Below the pieces are notes generated by a model. The model ran no database searches. It was given only the letters and a program-made list of their open reading frames with translations, and was not told the DNA's origin. A DNA stretch of 32,297 nucleotides from Syntrophaceae bacterium (GTDB taxonomy: Bacteria > Desulfobacterota > Syntrophia > Syntrophales > Smithellaceae). Below, one piece after another: positions 4,748 through 25,584 of this stretch. The translations under genes and the position numbers were made by a program. The stretch is from assembly GCA_003141615.1 (NCBI GenBank), contig PLMV01000101.1, positions 3,363 to 35,659 on the forward strand. The letters run 5' to 3'. Numbering within the stretch: the first letter of the stretch is position 1; every line of letters starts with the position of its first letter.

Positions 4748-4962
4748 ATGCTTTACTCATATTGTCACATCTATATATTAAAAAAATTTTACTGATCTTC
4801 TTTTAGAGAATTTCTAATATCATGTTGACAAACAAATTTGATTATGATTAATGACGCGCACCATGAAAGATTCACTCTCTTTCTCGTGCGGTTGATGGAG
4901 TTCACCTTTAATCGCAACCAATGCTAATGACTCCTGCAAAATTTAATGACAGGAATTATTAT

Positions 4963-5290: not shown

Positions 5291-6175
5291 ATGATGGGTA
5301 AAGCTACCGTAAAATATAATTTTCAGGTTTGCACTCCTCGCCTGGCAAAGGAATGGCATCCCACAAAGAATGATAACCTAATACCTAAAGAGGTAACAAT
5401 TGGTTCCAATAAGAAAGTATGGTGGCAATGCTCGAGGGGACATGAATGGGAGGCTACAGTTAATAACAGGAACAGGGGGACAGGTTGTCCCTATTGTTCC
5501 GGTAAAAAAGTCAACAATGAAAACTGTCTTAAAACGGTTAATCCAACTCTGGCAAAGGAATGGCATCCTACAAAGAATGATAACCTAACACCGAAAGAAG
5601 TAACGGCTGGTTCCATTAAGAAAGTATGGTGGCAATGCTCGAGGGGACATGAATGGGAGGCGTACGTTTATAACAGAAGCAATGGGCATGGTTGTCCCTA
5701 CTGTTCTGGGAGAAAAGTCAACGATAGAAACTGCCTTAAAACGGTTAATCCCACTTTGGCAAAGGAATGGCATCCAACAAAGAATGACAACCTAACACCG
5801 AAAGAGGTAACAATTGGTTCCATTAAGAAAATATGGTGGCAATGCTCGAAGGGACATGAGTGGGAGACTACAGTTAACAGCAGACAACATGGTCATGGTT
5901 GTCCCTATTGTTCTGGTAGAAAAGTCAACGATGAAAACTGCCTTAAAACGGTTAATCCAACTCTGGCAAAGGAGTGGCATCTTACAAAAAATGGTAATCT
6001 AACACCGAAAGAAGTAACAGCAGGTTCCGGTAAAAAAGTATGGTGGAAATGTTCGAGAGGTCACGTATGGGAGGCATGCGTTTATAACAGGAGCAAGGGG
6101 AATAATTGTCCCTTCTGTTCTGGCCATAAATTTAGTAACTGCCTACAAAAAATTAATCCAACTCTGGCAAAGTAA
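5291..6175 (+). CDS. Tandem treble-clef/zinc-ribbon repeat protein (DUF4379-like), truncated
   Basis: The product is 294 aa, made of four tandem copies of an about 69-residue unit plus the start of a fifth. Each unit contains AKEWHPTKN, a central WWxCSRGHxWE and a CPYCSG knuckle. The spaced C, H, C and C residues are the likely zinc ligands. This matches the probable zinc-ribbon domain DUF4379 (PF14311), found in proteins often thought to act on DNA or as endonuclease partners. Its function is not established, and no catalytic domain is present here. GAGAG at 5281-5285 precedes the ATG pair at 5291/5294. The frame ends in unit 5 at a TAA directly followed by TAG, although the homologous coding sequence continues. 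Confidence 0.75.
   Translation: MMGKATVKYNFQVCTPRLAKEWHPTKNDNLIPKEVTIGSNKKVWWQCSRGHEWEATVNNRNRGTGCPYCSGKKVNNENCLKTVNPTLAKEWHPTKNDNLTPKEVTAGSIKKVWWQCSRGHEWEAYVYNRSNGHGCPYCSGRKVNDRNCLKTVNPTLAKEWHPTKNDNLTPKEVTIGSIKKIWWQCSKGHEWETTVNSRQHGHGCPYCSGRKVNDENCLKTVNPTLAKEWHLTKNGNLTPKEVTAGSGKKVWWKCSRGHVWEACVYNRSKGNNCPFCSGHKFSNCLQKINPTLAK
5333..6157 (+). repeat. 207-bp in-frame tandem repeats
   Basis: Repeat units start at about 5333, 5540, 5747, 5954 and 6155. The first full steps are exactly 207 bp (69 codons) and the last is slightly shorter. Long stretches are nearly identical between units, while the central region, roughly the 10-12 codons before the CPYC knuckle, varies more. This suggests recent expansion or ongoing recombination between units. 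Confidence 0.85.
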
Positions 6176-6322
6176 TAGCATCCTACAAAAAATGGTAGAC
6201 TAAAGCCGATAGACGTAATGGCGGGTTCCAACAAGAAAGTTTGGTGGAAATGCTCAAGAGGTCATAAATGGGAGTCGACAGTTATTAAAAGGTATGTCTT
6301 TGGATGTATTTATTGCTGTTAG
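6176..6322 (+). pseudogene. Cut-off fifth zinc-ribbon unit
   Basis: After TAA (6173-6175) and TAG (6176-6178) the same frame stays open for 47 codons to TAG 6320-6322. It encodes the rest of a fifth unit, with its HPTKNG, VWWKCSRGHKWES and GCIYCC parts still in register. In earlier units the codons at the two stops are GAA and TGG, so two substitutions explain the interruption. All zinc ligands are kept, pointing to recent loss. Confidence 0.7.
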
Positions 6323-9657: not shown

Positions 9658-11124
9658 ATGAAACTTGCAACCAAGCTTGTGGGGATAATTGTTTTGGGAA
9701 TAATAGTTATCCTGGCTATTGACGGTTATATCGCGATACAGCGCGACACGGAAATCCTTGAAGCAAACATGAAGAGGGATTCTCAGCTAATGGGACGCGC
9801 TTTGAAGGATTTGATAGCTGATGTGTGGCAGAAGAGAGGCCGGAAGCGTGCCCTTCAGCTCATTGAACAGGCGGATAAGGAAGAGTATATGGTAAAAATA
9901 CGTTGGGTTAGTTTGAATGCGCCGCCTAATGACCCTTACAGCCCCCGTATGCCTAGAGAAAAGCTCGGTATGGTTATGCAGGGACAGGAGATGTCCTTCA
10001 AGGAACGAAAAAAAGCTGGTGCTGGATATCTTTATACATATATTCCCATTAGAGTCGACGATAAAAAACTAGGAGCCCTCGAACTTTCCCAGTCTTTGTC
10101 TAGTCTCGATGAACGTGCTCACCATGCCGTCAATAGAATATTTATACTGGCAGTTATTCTACTGGTTTTAAGCGTCATAGCTGTGTTGTTGCTTGGTTTC
10201 GGTATGATTGGGCGGCCGCTGCATCGTCTGGTCGAGAAAATACGACGCATAGGAGATGGTGACCTGTCGGAGCCGCTGTCTCTTCGCGGGGGTGGTGAGT
10301 TTTCCGAACTGGCAACGGCGTTGAATACAATGTGCGAACAGCTTAATGATGCCCAGAAAAAAGTTCATAAAGAAACTGCTGCCCGGATCGCTGCTATAGA
10401 GCAACTGCGCCATGCAGACCGGCTGAAAACTGTCGGCGGACTGGCATCCGGTATTGCCCATGAACTCGGCACACCATTGAATGTCGTTTCCGGCAGAGCA
10501 GGTCTTATTACCACCGGAGACCTGACAAAACAGGAGATCATGGAAAGTGCAGAGATCATCAAAACTCAATCCGAACGCATGACGGCGATCATCCGGCAGC
10601 TTCTCAACTTTGCACGACGCAATTCACCTAAAAAAACGATGATTGATCTGCGGCAGATAGTACTCCAGACTATAAACCTTATGACTCCACTTGCTCAGAA
10701 GCAAAAAGCAAAATTATGTTTTGCTAGTGAGGATGTTACGGCTATGGCAAAGATTGATACAGGGCAGATTCAACAGGTTCTGACAAACCTTATCGTCAAT
10801 GCCCTGCAGGCTATGCCTCAAGGGGGCAACATAGAGGTGGGTATTCGTCCTGAACATGCTCAAAATCCGGAAAACAGCAAAGATTCCGGAAAGGAGTATT
10901 TCCGTGTTTATGTTCTGGATGAGGGAGTAGGAATTCAGGAAAAAAATATGCAGAATATCTTTGAACCTTTTTTTACGACGAAAGACACCGGCCACGGCAC
11001 CGGACTGGGACTTTCAATTGCCTACGACATAATTCAGGAACACGGCGGCTGGATAGAGGTTAAGAGCACACCAGGTACAGGAAGCTGTTTTTCATTCTAT
11101 TTACCGCGAGAGGTTGAAAAATGA
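9658..11124 (+). CDS. Membrane sensor histidine kinase, NtrB/ZraS type
   Basis: A 488-aa kinase. TM1 lies at about residues 7-27, followed by a periplasmic sensing region (28-158), TM2 (160-183), a HAMP linker (about 184-235) and a HisKA domain with phospho-acceptor H268 in GIAHELGTPLN. The C-terminal ATPase has the N box NLIVNALQAMPQGG, the G1 box DEGVGI and the G2 box GTGLGLSIA. It overlaps the NtrC-type regulator gene by 4 bp (ATGA), so the two proteins are almost certainly partners. The HELGTPLN box is the form usual in kinases paired with sigma-54 activators. The signal sensed is unknown. The periplasmic region is small, as in ZraS-like envelope or metal sensors. Confidence 0.92.
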   Translation: MKLATKLVGIIVLGIIVILAIDGYIAIQRDTEILEANMKRDSQLMGRALKDLIADVWQKRGRKRALQLIEQADKEEYMVKIRWVSLNAPPNDPYSPRMPREKLGMVMQGQEMSFKERKKAGAGYLYTYIPIRVDDKKLGALELSQSLSSLDERAHHAVNRIFILAVILLVLSVIAVLLLGFGMIGRPLHRLVEKIRRIGDGDLSEPLSLRGGGEFSELATALNTMCEQLNDAQKKVHKETAARIAAIEQLRHADRLKTVGGLASGIAHELGTPLNVVSGRAGLITTGDLTKQEIMESAEIIKTQSERMTAIIRQLLNFARRNSPKKTMIDLRQIVLQTINLMTPLAQKQKAKLCFASEDVTAMAKIDTGQIQQVLTNLIVNALQAMPQGGNIEVGIRPEHAQNPENSKDSGKEYFRVYVLDEGVGIQEKNMQNIFEPFFTTKDTGHGTGLGLSIAYDIIQEHGGWIEVKSTPGTGSCFSFYLPREVEK

Positions 11125-12491
11125 GCAGACGAATTCTGGTTGTTGACGATGACAAAAGCATGTGTGAACTTCTTGATGCTGATTTAAGCCGGCGCGGCTT
11201 TCAGATATTATACTGCACTTCCGCGGATGAAGCGTTCCGGGTATTGCAGGATAAAGAATTCGACACTGTATTGACCGATCTGCAAATGCCGGGCATGGAC
11301 GGGATTGATCTCTGTAACCGAATAGTATTGAACAGGTCGGACATACCCGTCATCGTAATTACCGCATTCGGTAGTATGGAAACCGCCATTGAAGCGATGC
11401 GTGCAGGAGCCTACGATTTTGTCACAAAGCCATTCGAGATGGATATACTCGCTCTGGCTCTGGAACGCGCCTTGAAACACCGATCTCTGCAGGAACAGGT
11501 TAAAACACTGAGCAGGGTTCTGGAGAAGGCTAAAAAGTACGACGAACTTATCGGCGCAAGCATGCCCATGCAGAAAATCTATGATCAGCTTTCGCGAATA
11601 GCAAATTCCGAATCCACGGTTCTGATTACCGGCGAAAGCGGAACAGGCAAAGAACTTGTTGCCAGGGCCATACACAGGCAAAGCAATCGGAATACCGGCC
11701 CGTTTGTTGCAATCAATTGTGCCGCATTAACCGATACACTTCTGGAAAGCGAACTTTTCGGGCACACGCGCGGCGCATTTACAGATGCAAAGACCGCCCG
11801 CAAAGGTCTTTTCCTGCAGGCTGAAGGAGGGACACTCCTTCTGGATGAAATCGGAGACTTTCCCCTGACCCTGCAACCAAAGCTTCTTAGGGCCCTAGAA
11901 GAACGTTCTCTCCGCCCAGTCGGCGGCGACACGGAAACCACTTTTGATGTAAGAGTAATTTCAACGACGAATCGTGATCTTGAATCGGCCGTGGAAGAAA
12001 AATTGTTTCGCGAAGCTCTCTTTTTTCGTATTAACGTTATACAGGTTGAGCTTCCTCCGCTTCGCGAACGTGGAACGGATATTCTGCTCCTGGCGCAGCA
12101 TTTCATCGAACAGTTTGCAACCCGCACTGATAAACGCATATCCGGCATATCAGACGCGGCAGCGGAGAAACTGCTTGACTATGCATGGCCGGGAAACGTA
12201 CGTGAACTGCGGAACGTCGTCGAACGGGCTGTGGCACTGACAAAATACGAAAAGCTTGCCGTTGATGATCTGCCGGAAAAAATCCGTTCTTACCACGGCA
12301 CGGAGATGATCATCGGCAGCAAGGCTTCCGAACTTGTTTCTATGGAAGAGACGGAGCGGCGTTATATACTTCATGTTCTGAAAGCCGTTGGCGGCAACAA
12401 AGCTCACGCTGCACGGTTGCTGGGTTTCGACAGAAAAACTTTATATCGCAAATTGCATTTTTACAAAATAGCCGAAAACGATAAGGAATGA
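11121..12491 (+). CDS. NtrC-family sigma-54-dependent response regulator
   Basis: A 456-aa three-domain activator. The receiver domain has D53 in VLTDLQMPGMDG. The AAA+ domain has Walker A GESGTGKE (171-178) and Walker B LLLDEI (239-244), followed by an arginine-rich sensor region. A Fis-type helix-turn-helix lies near the C-terminus (KAHAARLLGFDRKTLYRKL). The sigma-54-contact loop reads GAFTDA (218-223), not the consensus GAFTGA. Together with the overlapping kinase it forms a two-component system. Two sigma-54-type promoters in the window (12796 and 24906) are natural candidate targets, but binding is not shown. Confidence 0.94.
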   Translation: MSRRILVVDDDKSMCELLDADLSRRGFQILYCTSADEAFRVLQDKEFDTVLTDLQMPGMDGIDLCNRIVLNRSDIPVIVITAFGSMETAIEAMRAGAYDFVTKPFEMDILALALERALKHRSLQEQVKTLSRVLEKAKKYDELIGASMPMQKIYDQLSRIANSESTVLITGESGTGKELVARAIHRQSNRNTGPFVAINCAALTDTLLESELFGHTRGAFTDAKTARKGLFLQAEGGTLLLDEIGDFPLTLQPKLLRALEERSLRPVGGDTETTFDVRVISTTNRDLESAVEEKLFREALFFRINVIQVELPPLRERGTDILLLAQHFIEQFATRTDKRISGISDAAAEKLLDYAWPGNVRELRNVVERAVALTKYEKLAVDDLPEKIRSYHGTEMIIGSKASELVSMEETERRYILHVLKAVGGNKAHAARLLGFDRKTLYRKLHFYKIAENDKE

Positions 12492-24773: not shown

Positions 24774-24807
24774 CCTCAATATATTGAGGCTCCACCAAAT
24801 ATTGAGG
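24774..24807. promoter_or_regulatory. Palindrome plus extra half-site, candidate enhancer
   Basis: CCTCAATATATTGAGG (24774-24789) is a perfect 16-bp palindrome. A further half-site, AATATTGAGG, follows at 24798-24807. It lies 120-130 bp upstream of the sigma-54-type -24 element, the usual position for the binding site of an NtrC-family activator. Confidence 0.55.
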
Positions 24808-24905
24808 TCAAACGAATCATTTCATGCTTTTCTATTATTCTCTCCTATTTATCTACTCCCTTGTTCTGAAAGAACGAATCCAAGTATTTGGCTCTTCTTC
24901 AGTTG

Positions 24906-24922
24906 TTGGCAGGTTATTTGCT
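24906..24922 (+). promoter_or_regulatory. Sigma-54-type promoter
   Basis: TTGGCAGGTTATTTGCT has GG (24908-24909) and GC (24920-24921) exactly 10 bases apart, with TTGGCA and TTTGCT cores. It is closer to consensus than the one at 12796. Transcription should begin near 24933, about 37 nt before ATG 24970. It may also drive the holin-like gene and the tal-pgm-glucan genes beyond. Confidence 0.7.
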
Positions 24923-24969
24923 ATCATATTATTAATGTTATTAAAAATTAAAAAAAAGGAGAAATTGCC

Positions 24970-25146
24970 ATGTCAGGAATCAATCTAACATCGAGGGAAG
25001 AAGAAGAGCTGCTACGGATTCTCGAAAGATATCTACCGGATCTGGAAAGAGAAATGGCGGATACGGACAGTAAGAAGTTCCTCCATGCACTGGAAGAAAG
25101 AGCAACCATAATGAGAGATTTGATAAAACGCCTGAAGGCGCAGTAA
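24970..25146 (+). CDS. Small helical protein, unknown
   Basis: A 58-aa protein starting MSGINLTSREEEEL. It is acidic at first and basic at the end, is predicted to be almost all helix, and has a regular hydrophobic pattern (ILERYLPDLE, ALEERATIMRDLIKRL) suggesting a helical pair or short coiled coil. AAGGAG is well placed before the ATG, and a sigma-54-type promoter lies 37 nt upstream of it, so expression is likely regulated. No domain family is identified. Confidence 0.65.
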   Translation: MSGINLTSREEEELLRILERYLPDLEREMADTDSKKFLHALEERATIMRDLIKRLKAQ

Positions 25147-25338: not shown

Positions 25339-25584
25339 ATGAAACTTAACACAAAGGCTTTCGGACTGACATTTGGGCTTTTATGGGGCTTCGGTTTGTT
25401 TTTCGGTACATGGTGGATGATAATTATAGGGAAAGCATTGGGAGCGCCGACGCTCATAAGCAAATGCTACATAGGGTACAGCATTACTCCCATAGGCAGT
25501 CTGGTAGGTCTAGTCTGGGCTTTTTTCGATGGTTTAATAGGCGGCGCAATTTTTGCCTGGTTATATAATAAACTCAGTTCCTAG
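25339..25584 (+). CDS. Small holin-like membrane protein
   Basis: An 81-aa membrane protein with two to three hydrophobic segments (LTFGLLWGFGLFFGTWWMIII and GSLVGLVWAFFDGLIGGAIFAWLY). The second motif and the length match a group of chromosomal proteins often annotated as bacteriophage holin, although no phage genes are present here. ATG 25339 is preferred over the upstream in-frame ATG 25303 because GGAGG sits 8 nt before it. Given the envelope-related neighbours, a stress or membrane role is as likely as lysis. Confidence 0.65.
   Translation: MKLNTKAFGLTFGLLWGFGLFFGTWWMIIIGKALGAPTLISKCYIGYSITPIGSLVGLVWAFFDGLIGGAIFAWLYNKLSS

Follow-up and report, generated by a model that had tools for sequence, protein, structure and literature searches.

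A short stretch of the genome of a Syntrophaceae bacterium raises the question of what a sigma-54-type promoter, placed behind a perfect palindrome, is doing ahead of a gene for a 58-aa protein. The promoter lies in a 32,297-nt stretch of DNA, here called the window (C123:3363-35659), of a 3.54-Mb genome (G000). An earlier note on the window had described one local promoter; it is in fact one of ten in this genome, and the regulon is spread across the phylum. We consider it likely, with a probability of roughly 0.85, that the window promoter belongs to a multi-operon sigma-54 regulon that has a dedicated enhancer-binding protein (EBP) and induces small, mostly membrane, periplasmic or stress-type proteins. 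A single sensor protein probably activates the modules.

The promoter module and its two small genes

The elements of the module and the two genes behind it are the following:

24774-24789, no strand: operator site 1, CCTCAATATATTGAGG, a perfect 16-bp palindrome that recurs in the same genome and in relatives
24792-24807, + strand: operator site 2, CCACCAAATATTGAGG, an imperfect palindrome conserved in all ten modules of the genome
24808-24905, + strand: spacer between operator and promoter, near-fixed in length and also conserved in sequence
24906-24922, + strand: sigma-54 -24/-12 promoter, TTGGCAGGTTATTTGCT (TTGGCA-GGTTAT-TTGCT), with exact GG-N10-GC spacing
24956-24961, + strand: ribosome-binding site, AAGGAG
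24970-25146, + strand: first gene of the module, for a 58-aa helical protein with homologs in 24 of 60 close relatives
25339-25584, + strand: gene for an 81-aa membrane protein, NCBIfam holin_4 (NF037947; 83.2 bits, cut-off 70)

Site 1, the second site and the -24/-12 box form one complete promoter module. Every element is located in the window sequence. The palindrome is perfect and the box TTGGCA-N6-TTGCT has its exact spacing, both as the earlier note had it, and there is strong support for its reading of a sigma-54 promoter preceded by an activator site. One of its details changes: the supposed half-site is a full second site, which lies 18 bp from site 1, centre to centre, and keeps its imperfect form throughout the modules of the genome. 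The 37 nt given for the interval before the start codon is the distance from the predicted transcription start (near 24933) to the ATG at 24970. The EBP presumably binds site 1 as a dimer.

The 58-aa ORF is a genuine gene, and its ortholog in one relative (G010, locus L040) is 88% identical and under the same kind of module. Since this G010 copy is the only one among the homologs in relatives to have a module, control of the 58-aa gene by the regulon is lineage-specific; operator control of the entire family was considered and rejected, the homologs in other relatives having neither operator nor promoter upstream. The 81-aa protein is a member of the holin_4 family, holin function being putative. 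Its G010 ortholog (L099, 95% identical) follows a DUF932 gene that another copy of the module precedes, and the holin-like gene therefore belongs to the regulon independently. The link drawn earlier between both genes and the module thus holds, with orthologs of each found downstream of a module of their own in a single relative. In the window, we infer that the two genes are co-transcribed across the 193-bp gap between them, in which no terminator-like site was found on the + strand.

Recurrence of the module and the genes behind it

The strict promoter pattern TTGGCANNNNNNTTGCW occurs 18 times in G000 and never in the reversed control, and so exceeds chance. A search with the palindrome only, allowing up to 2 mismatches, gave ten modules, each before a different operon (C120 at 444, 1880, 12748, 21099, 24794 and 30362; C123, the window copy; C143; C175; C22); the palindrome at C120:1880 has three mismatches and was counted since the remainder of its module is intact. 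In all ten, the palindrome is followed by the second site, which was not part of the search, and then by a sigma-54 box 130-132 bp downstream. Three of these boxes (C22, C143 and C120:12748) are variants, TTGGCT or TTGGCC, and fall outside the 18 strict matches. Palindromes at C28, C12 and C126 have no second site and no box at the module distance (C160 left out). The genome encodes rpoN (C21:5626-6102; PF04552, E 2.4e-64), and what we find in it is what makes a sigma-54 regulon: an activator operator upstream of the promoters and common to several operons.

Ten more strict sigma-54 promoters in G000 (L005, L006, L008-L015; on C69, C70, C88, C97, C154, C179, C184, C188, C206 and C216) have no module operator and are presumably under other activators. 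One of them adjoins an EBP gene (C188:9414-10286).

Among 60 close relatives, the tandem operator is present in 26 (up to 3 mismatches; reversed control 0), and a slightly relaxed form is present in 21 of 395 Desulfobacterota genomes (reversed pattern 0). The palindrome, whose lack of conservation in relatives had been named beforehand as an outcome that would tell against it, is conserved there. The largest count reaches up to 18 operator sites (G010). In a scan of a named collection, nearly all of the matches listed were Syntrophaceae, Smithella or other Deltaproteobacteria; a few records among them were named Kiritimatiellae or Taylorbacteria, and these may be misbinned. Site 2 has a recurrent variant (CCACCGCATGTTGAGG type), present at L139, L140, L052, L083 and similar loci, and the variant operator at L139 (CCGCAT type of site 2) has near it a different EBP, whose HTH is divergent; the variant site and the divergent EBP may mark a paralogous sub-regulon.

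We scanned 83 first genes behind modules, chosen by a simple start/RBS rule by which some assignments will be wrong. The families recovered were CsbD (6), DUF932 (5), ABM and histidine-kinase ATPase (4 each), OmpA, DUF3309, DUF5670 and DUF4398 (3 each), and BON, ice-binding-like, Usp, Big_5, YtxH and LTXXQ (2 each), with single matches that include fatty-acid cis/trans isomerase (Cti) and Band_7. The six C120 modules sit among genes for OmpA proteins, Spy-like LTXXQ, YtxH, Ysc84 and Usp, with PLD, DUF302, triple-BON and CsbD genes also around them. Both intact CsbD genes of G000 are under modules; a third CsbD gene, on C8, was tried and set aside, as there is no operator there and its frame has a stop. 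In other genomes, PAS histidine kinases are found under some modules.

These downstream genes look like an envelope or general-stress set. Because many of them are metabolic or of no known function, 'stress' is here a reading of gene names. The earlier note had tied the window genes to a specific stress or nutrient signal; the first fits the downstream gene set, and we found no evidence for the second. A real regulon with another role, such as remodelling of the surface or cell wall or a part in syntrophic interaction, in which CsbD and Usp would be incidental, is possible though in our judgement unlikely: many targets are outer-membrane or secreted proteins (OmpA, Big_2/Big_5 and ice-binding-like lipoproteins), and a penicillin-binding-protein-like gene and MORN_2 are among them, but CsbD, Usp, LTXXQ/Spy, BON, YtxH and Cti, families tied to stress in other bacteria, recur behind modules in different genomes.

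The candidate activator

Directly upstream of the operator there is often a gene for a sigma-54 activator of PAS, Sigma54_activat and Fis-type composition. This EBP has a variable number of N-terminal PAS domains, an AAA+ domain with GAFTGA and a C-terminal Fis-type HTH, and it ends in ...PSTLRARMHKLGI; in relatives it carries what is expected of a cognate EBP, namely PF00158 (Sigma54_activat; E 8e-71), GAFTGA and HTH_8. We searched for it independently of the operator, using a profile of its last 75 residues and counting matches above 98 bits. The family is present in 21 of 395 genomes of the phylum, and its distribution follows that of the operator (both in 19 genomes, operator only in 2, EBP only in 2, neither in 372; p=3.8e-28). 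The 60 close relatives agree: of the 26 with the operator 14 have the EBP, and of the 34 lacking the operator none does (p=5.6e-7). In 26 of 28 EBP genes, 11-62 bp separate the stop codon from the start of the operator. This count is biased because many of these 28 loci were retrieved via the operator; the phylum search is the unbiased test, and most of its matches, too, are followed by an operator after about 30 bp.

The window's own genome at first seemed to lack the gene, both at E 1e-12 and in a full-length search. The last 22 EBP residues (HPSTLRARLHKLGMVRPETKEQD*) then turned up at the very edge of a contig (C120:1-66; E=2.6e-8), and because of this the EBP gene is probably present in G000 and cut by the assembly. 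From this remnant to the next operator, the first on C120, the distance is 372 bp and not the usual 30 bp or so. An assembly gap accounts for the missing EBP in G000, but not in G021, a 100% complete genome with three operator sites and no recognisable EBP.

Adjacency and co-occurrence suggest that this EBP binds the operator. That the palindrome is instead bound by another regulator of a real sigma-54 regulon, the adjacent EBP being merely a frequent member of the cluster, we regard as improbable. Such a regulator would suit the 12 of 26 operator-positive relatives in which the EBP has no recognisable match at the cut-off used, the other EBP beside the variant operator at L139 and the PAS histidine kinases under some modules; it would leave unexplained the match of presence and absence over 395 genomes, the near-fixed adjacency of EBP and operator and the EBP's own Fis-type HTH.

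What we computed, namely recurrence, fixed geometry, EBP co-occurrence and adjacency, and gene content, suggests the following model for the EBP-driven regulon, which would be a feature of Syntrophales and occur patchily across Desulfobacterota. The EBP would bind as dimers to CCTCAAYATRYTGAGG-N2-CCACCAAATAYTGAGG, the tandem operator that precedes each -24/-12 box by about 131 bp; its PAS domains would sense a signal, upon which the EBP would oligomerise, contact sigma-54 polymerase by DNA looping and open the promoter. The expected outcome would be induction of proteins that are small and for the most part of membrane, periplasmic or stress type, the 58-aa and holin-like proteins included. 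Dimer binding, oligomerisation, looping and promoter opening are borrowed in this model from established sigma-54 biology, and binding by this particular EBP, sensing by PAS and an envelope or general-stress role are its putative parts.

A conserved spacer and comparison with known systems

Sigma-54 enhancers normally act over variable distances. Here, 124 of 158 non-identical modules have an operator-to-box distance of 131 or 132 bp, and all of them have one of 128-134 bp, in a search that permitted 125-138 bp. The spacer of ~97 bp is conserved at 0.5-0.9 bits per position across the 158 modules, against 0.01-0.1 in the flanks; the operator and box columns were chosen by the search, and the spacer columns were not. 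Conservation is at most 0.04 bits farther than 40 bp upstream of the operator, and it fades within about 40 bp downstream of the box. Among sigma-54 enhancers it is unusual for a spacer to be conserved in both length and sequence, and this is the module's most unusual trait.

Spacer identity is 57% within G000 and 55% to other genomes, and since the two are equal, the copies are not recent duplicates, which rules out a recent cassette duplication. A dispersed repeat or mobile cassette that carries a promoter-like sequence, with no regulon behind it, is a very improbable reading of the module: some 170 bp are conserved, spacer included, and six copies cluster on C120, but besides the equal identities, conservation ends near the operator and shortly past the -12 box, an RBS with start codon follows within 100 bp downstream in 62 of 158 modules (vs 13 of 158 within 120 bp upstream) and the module itself contains no ORF.

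IHF-like matches (8-9 of 9 consensus positions) occur in 72 of 158 modules, where 36 would be expected, and peak 24-25 bp before the box, which is no more than suggestive of an IHF site in the spacer. Phased A-tracts, as a source of intrinsic bending, gave no significant 10-bp period (p 0.37-0.68). In 21 of 158 modules an inverted repeat, ATTAA-N2-6-TTAAT, stands some 40 bp ahead of the -24 box.

More speculatively, many Desulfobacterota might handle general or envelope stress through sigma-54 and one PAS activator rather than through a stress sigma factor, using a 170-bp module of fixed geometry whose ~97-bp spacer would be conserved by further proteins or by a defined DNA path; we offer this as a tentative suggestion, and doubt it more than we believe it.

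Sigma-54/EBP regulons are already known as a kind. The main text of the Desulfovibrio vulgaris regulome paper, on another sulfate-reducing, deltaproteobacterial lineage, describes EBPs most of which control 1-4 operons, the largest controlling 12 (Kazakov et al. 2015, PMC4641369). As here, it describes one-component PAS EBPs and EBP genes that adjoin the sigma-54 promoters they control, and it includes EBP regulons for envelope stress (DVU1419, DVU3381); its stress EBPs are response regulators, whereas the present EBP has PAS sensors, and its largest regulon falls short of the 18 operator sites of G010. The CTCA/TGAG motif is absent from that main text.

Among curated families, the EBP's best equivalog match is the formate hydrogenlyase activator FhlA (NF011958), through AAA+ and HTH, but its 389.5 bits are far below the cut-off of 830, the EBP has PAS sensors and no formate hydrogenlyase genes were seen among the targets scanned; the EBP was therefore rejected as an FhlA equivalog. 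PspF of the phage-shock response is likewise a sigma-54 EBP and governs an envelope-stress response, but it has no N-terminal PAS sensors, the match to TIGR02974 (285.8 bits) is below the curated cut-off of 443.55 and no pspA was seen among the targets scanned, and PspF too was rejected. General stress regulons elsewhere have dedicated sigma factors (SigB, RpoS, EcfG). Their types of target are similar (CsbD, Usp, BON, YtxH, small membrane proteins), but in the present case the promoter of each operon is of the sigma-54 kind and comes with an activator operator.

In our literature search the motif string appeared in no paper, no paper combined sigma-54, enhancer-binding protein and Smithella, a looser search gave no Smithella paper among its first ten, and we found no described sigma-54 regulon for this group of uncultured or hard-to-culture syntrophs; the present regulon is apparently undescribed. 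It links dozens of orphan small proteins to a particular operator and a particular activator in one regulon, and offers a way to test how syntrophic Desulfobacterota may respond to envelope stress.

Three further features of the window were recorded, the first being all that an Rfam scan of the window returned:

4882-4943, + strand: fluoride riboswitch (RF01734, 45.6 bits)
11118-12488, + strand: a second, unrelated sigma-54 response regulator (GAFTGA, NtrC-like)
5342-6288: tandem array with a 207-bp unit, 4.6 copies and 81% matches

Because the 207-bp unit is a multiple of three, the array could encode a protein with 69-residue repeats.
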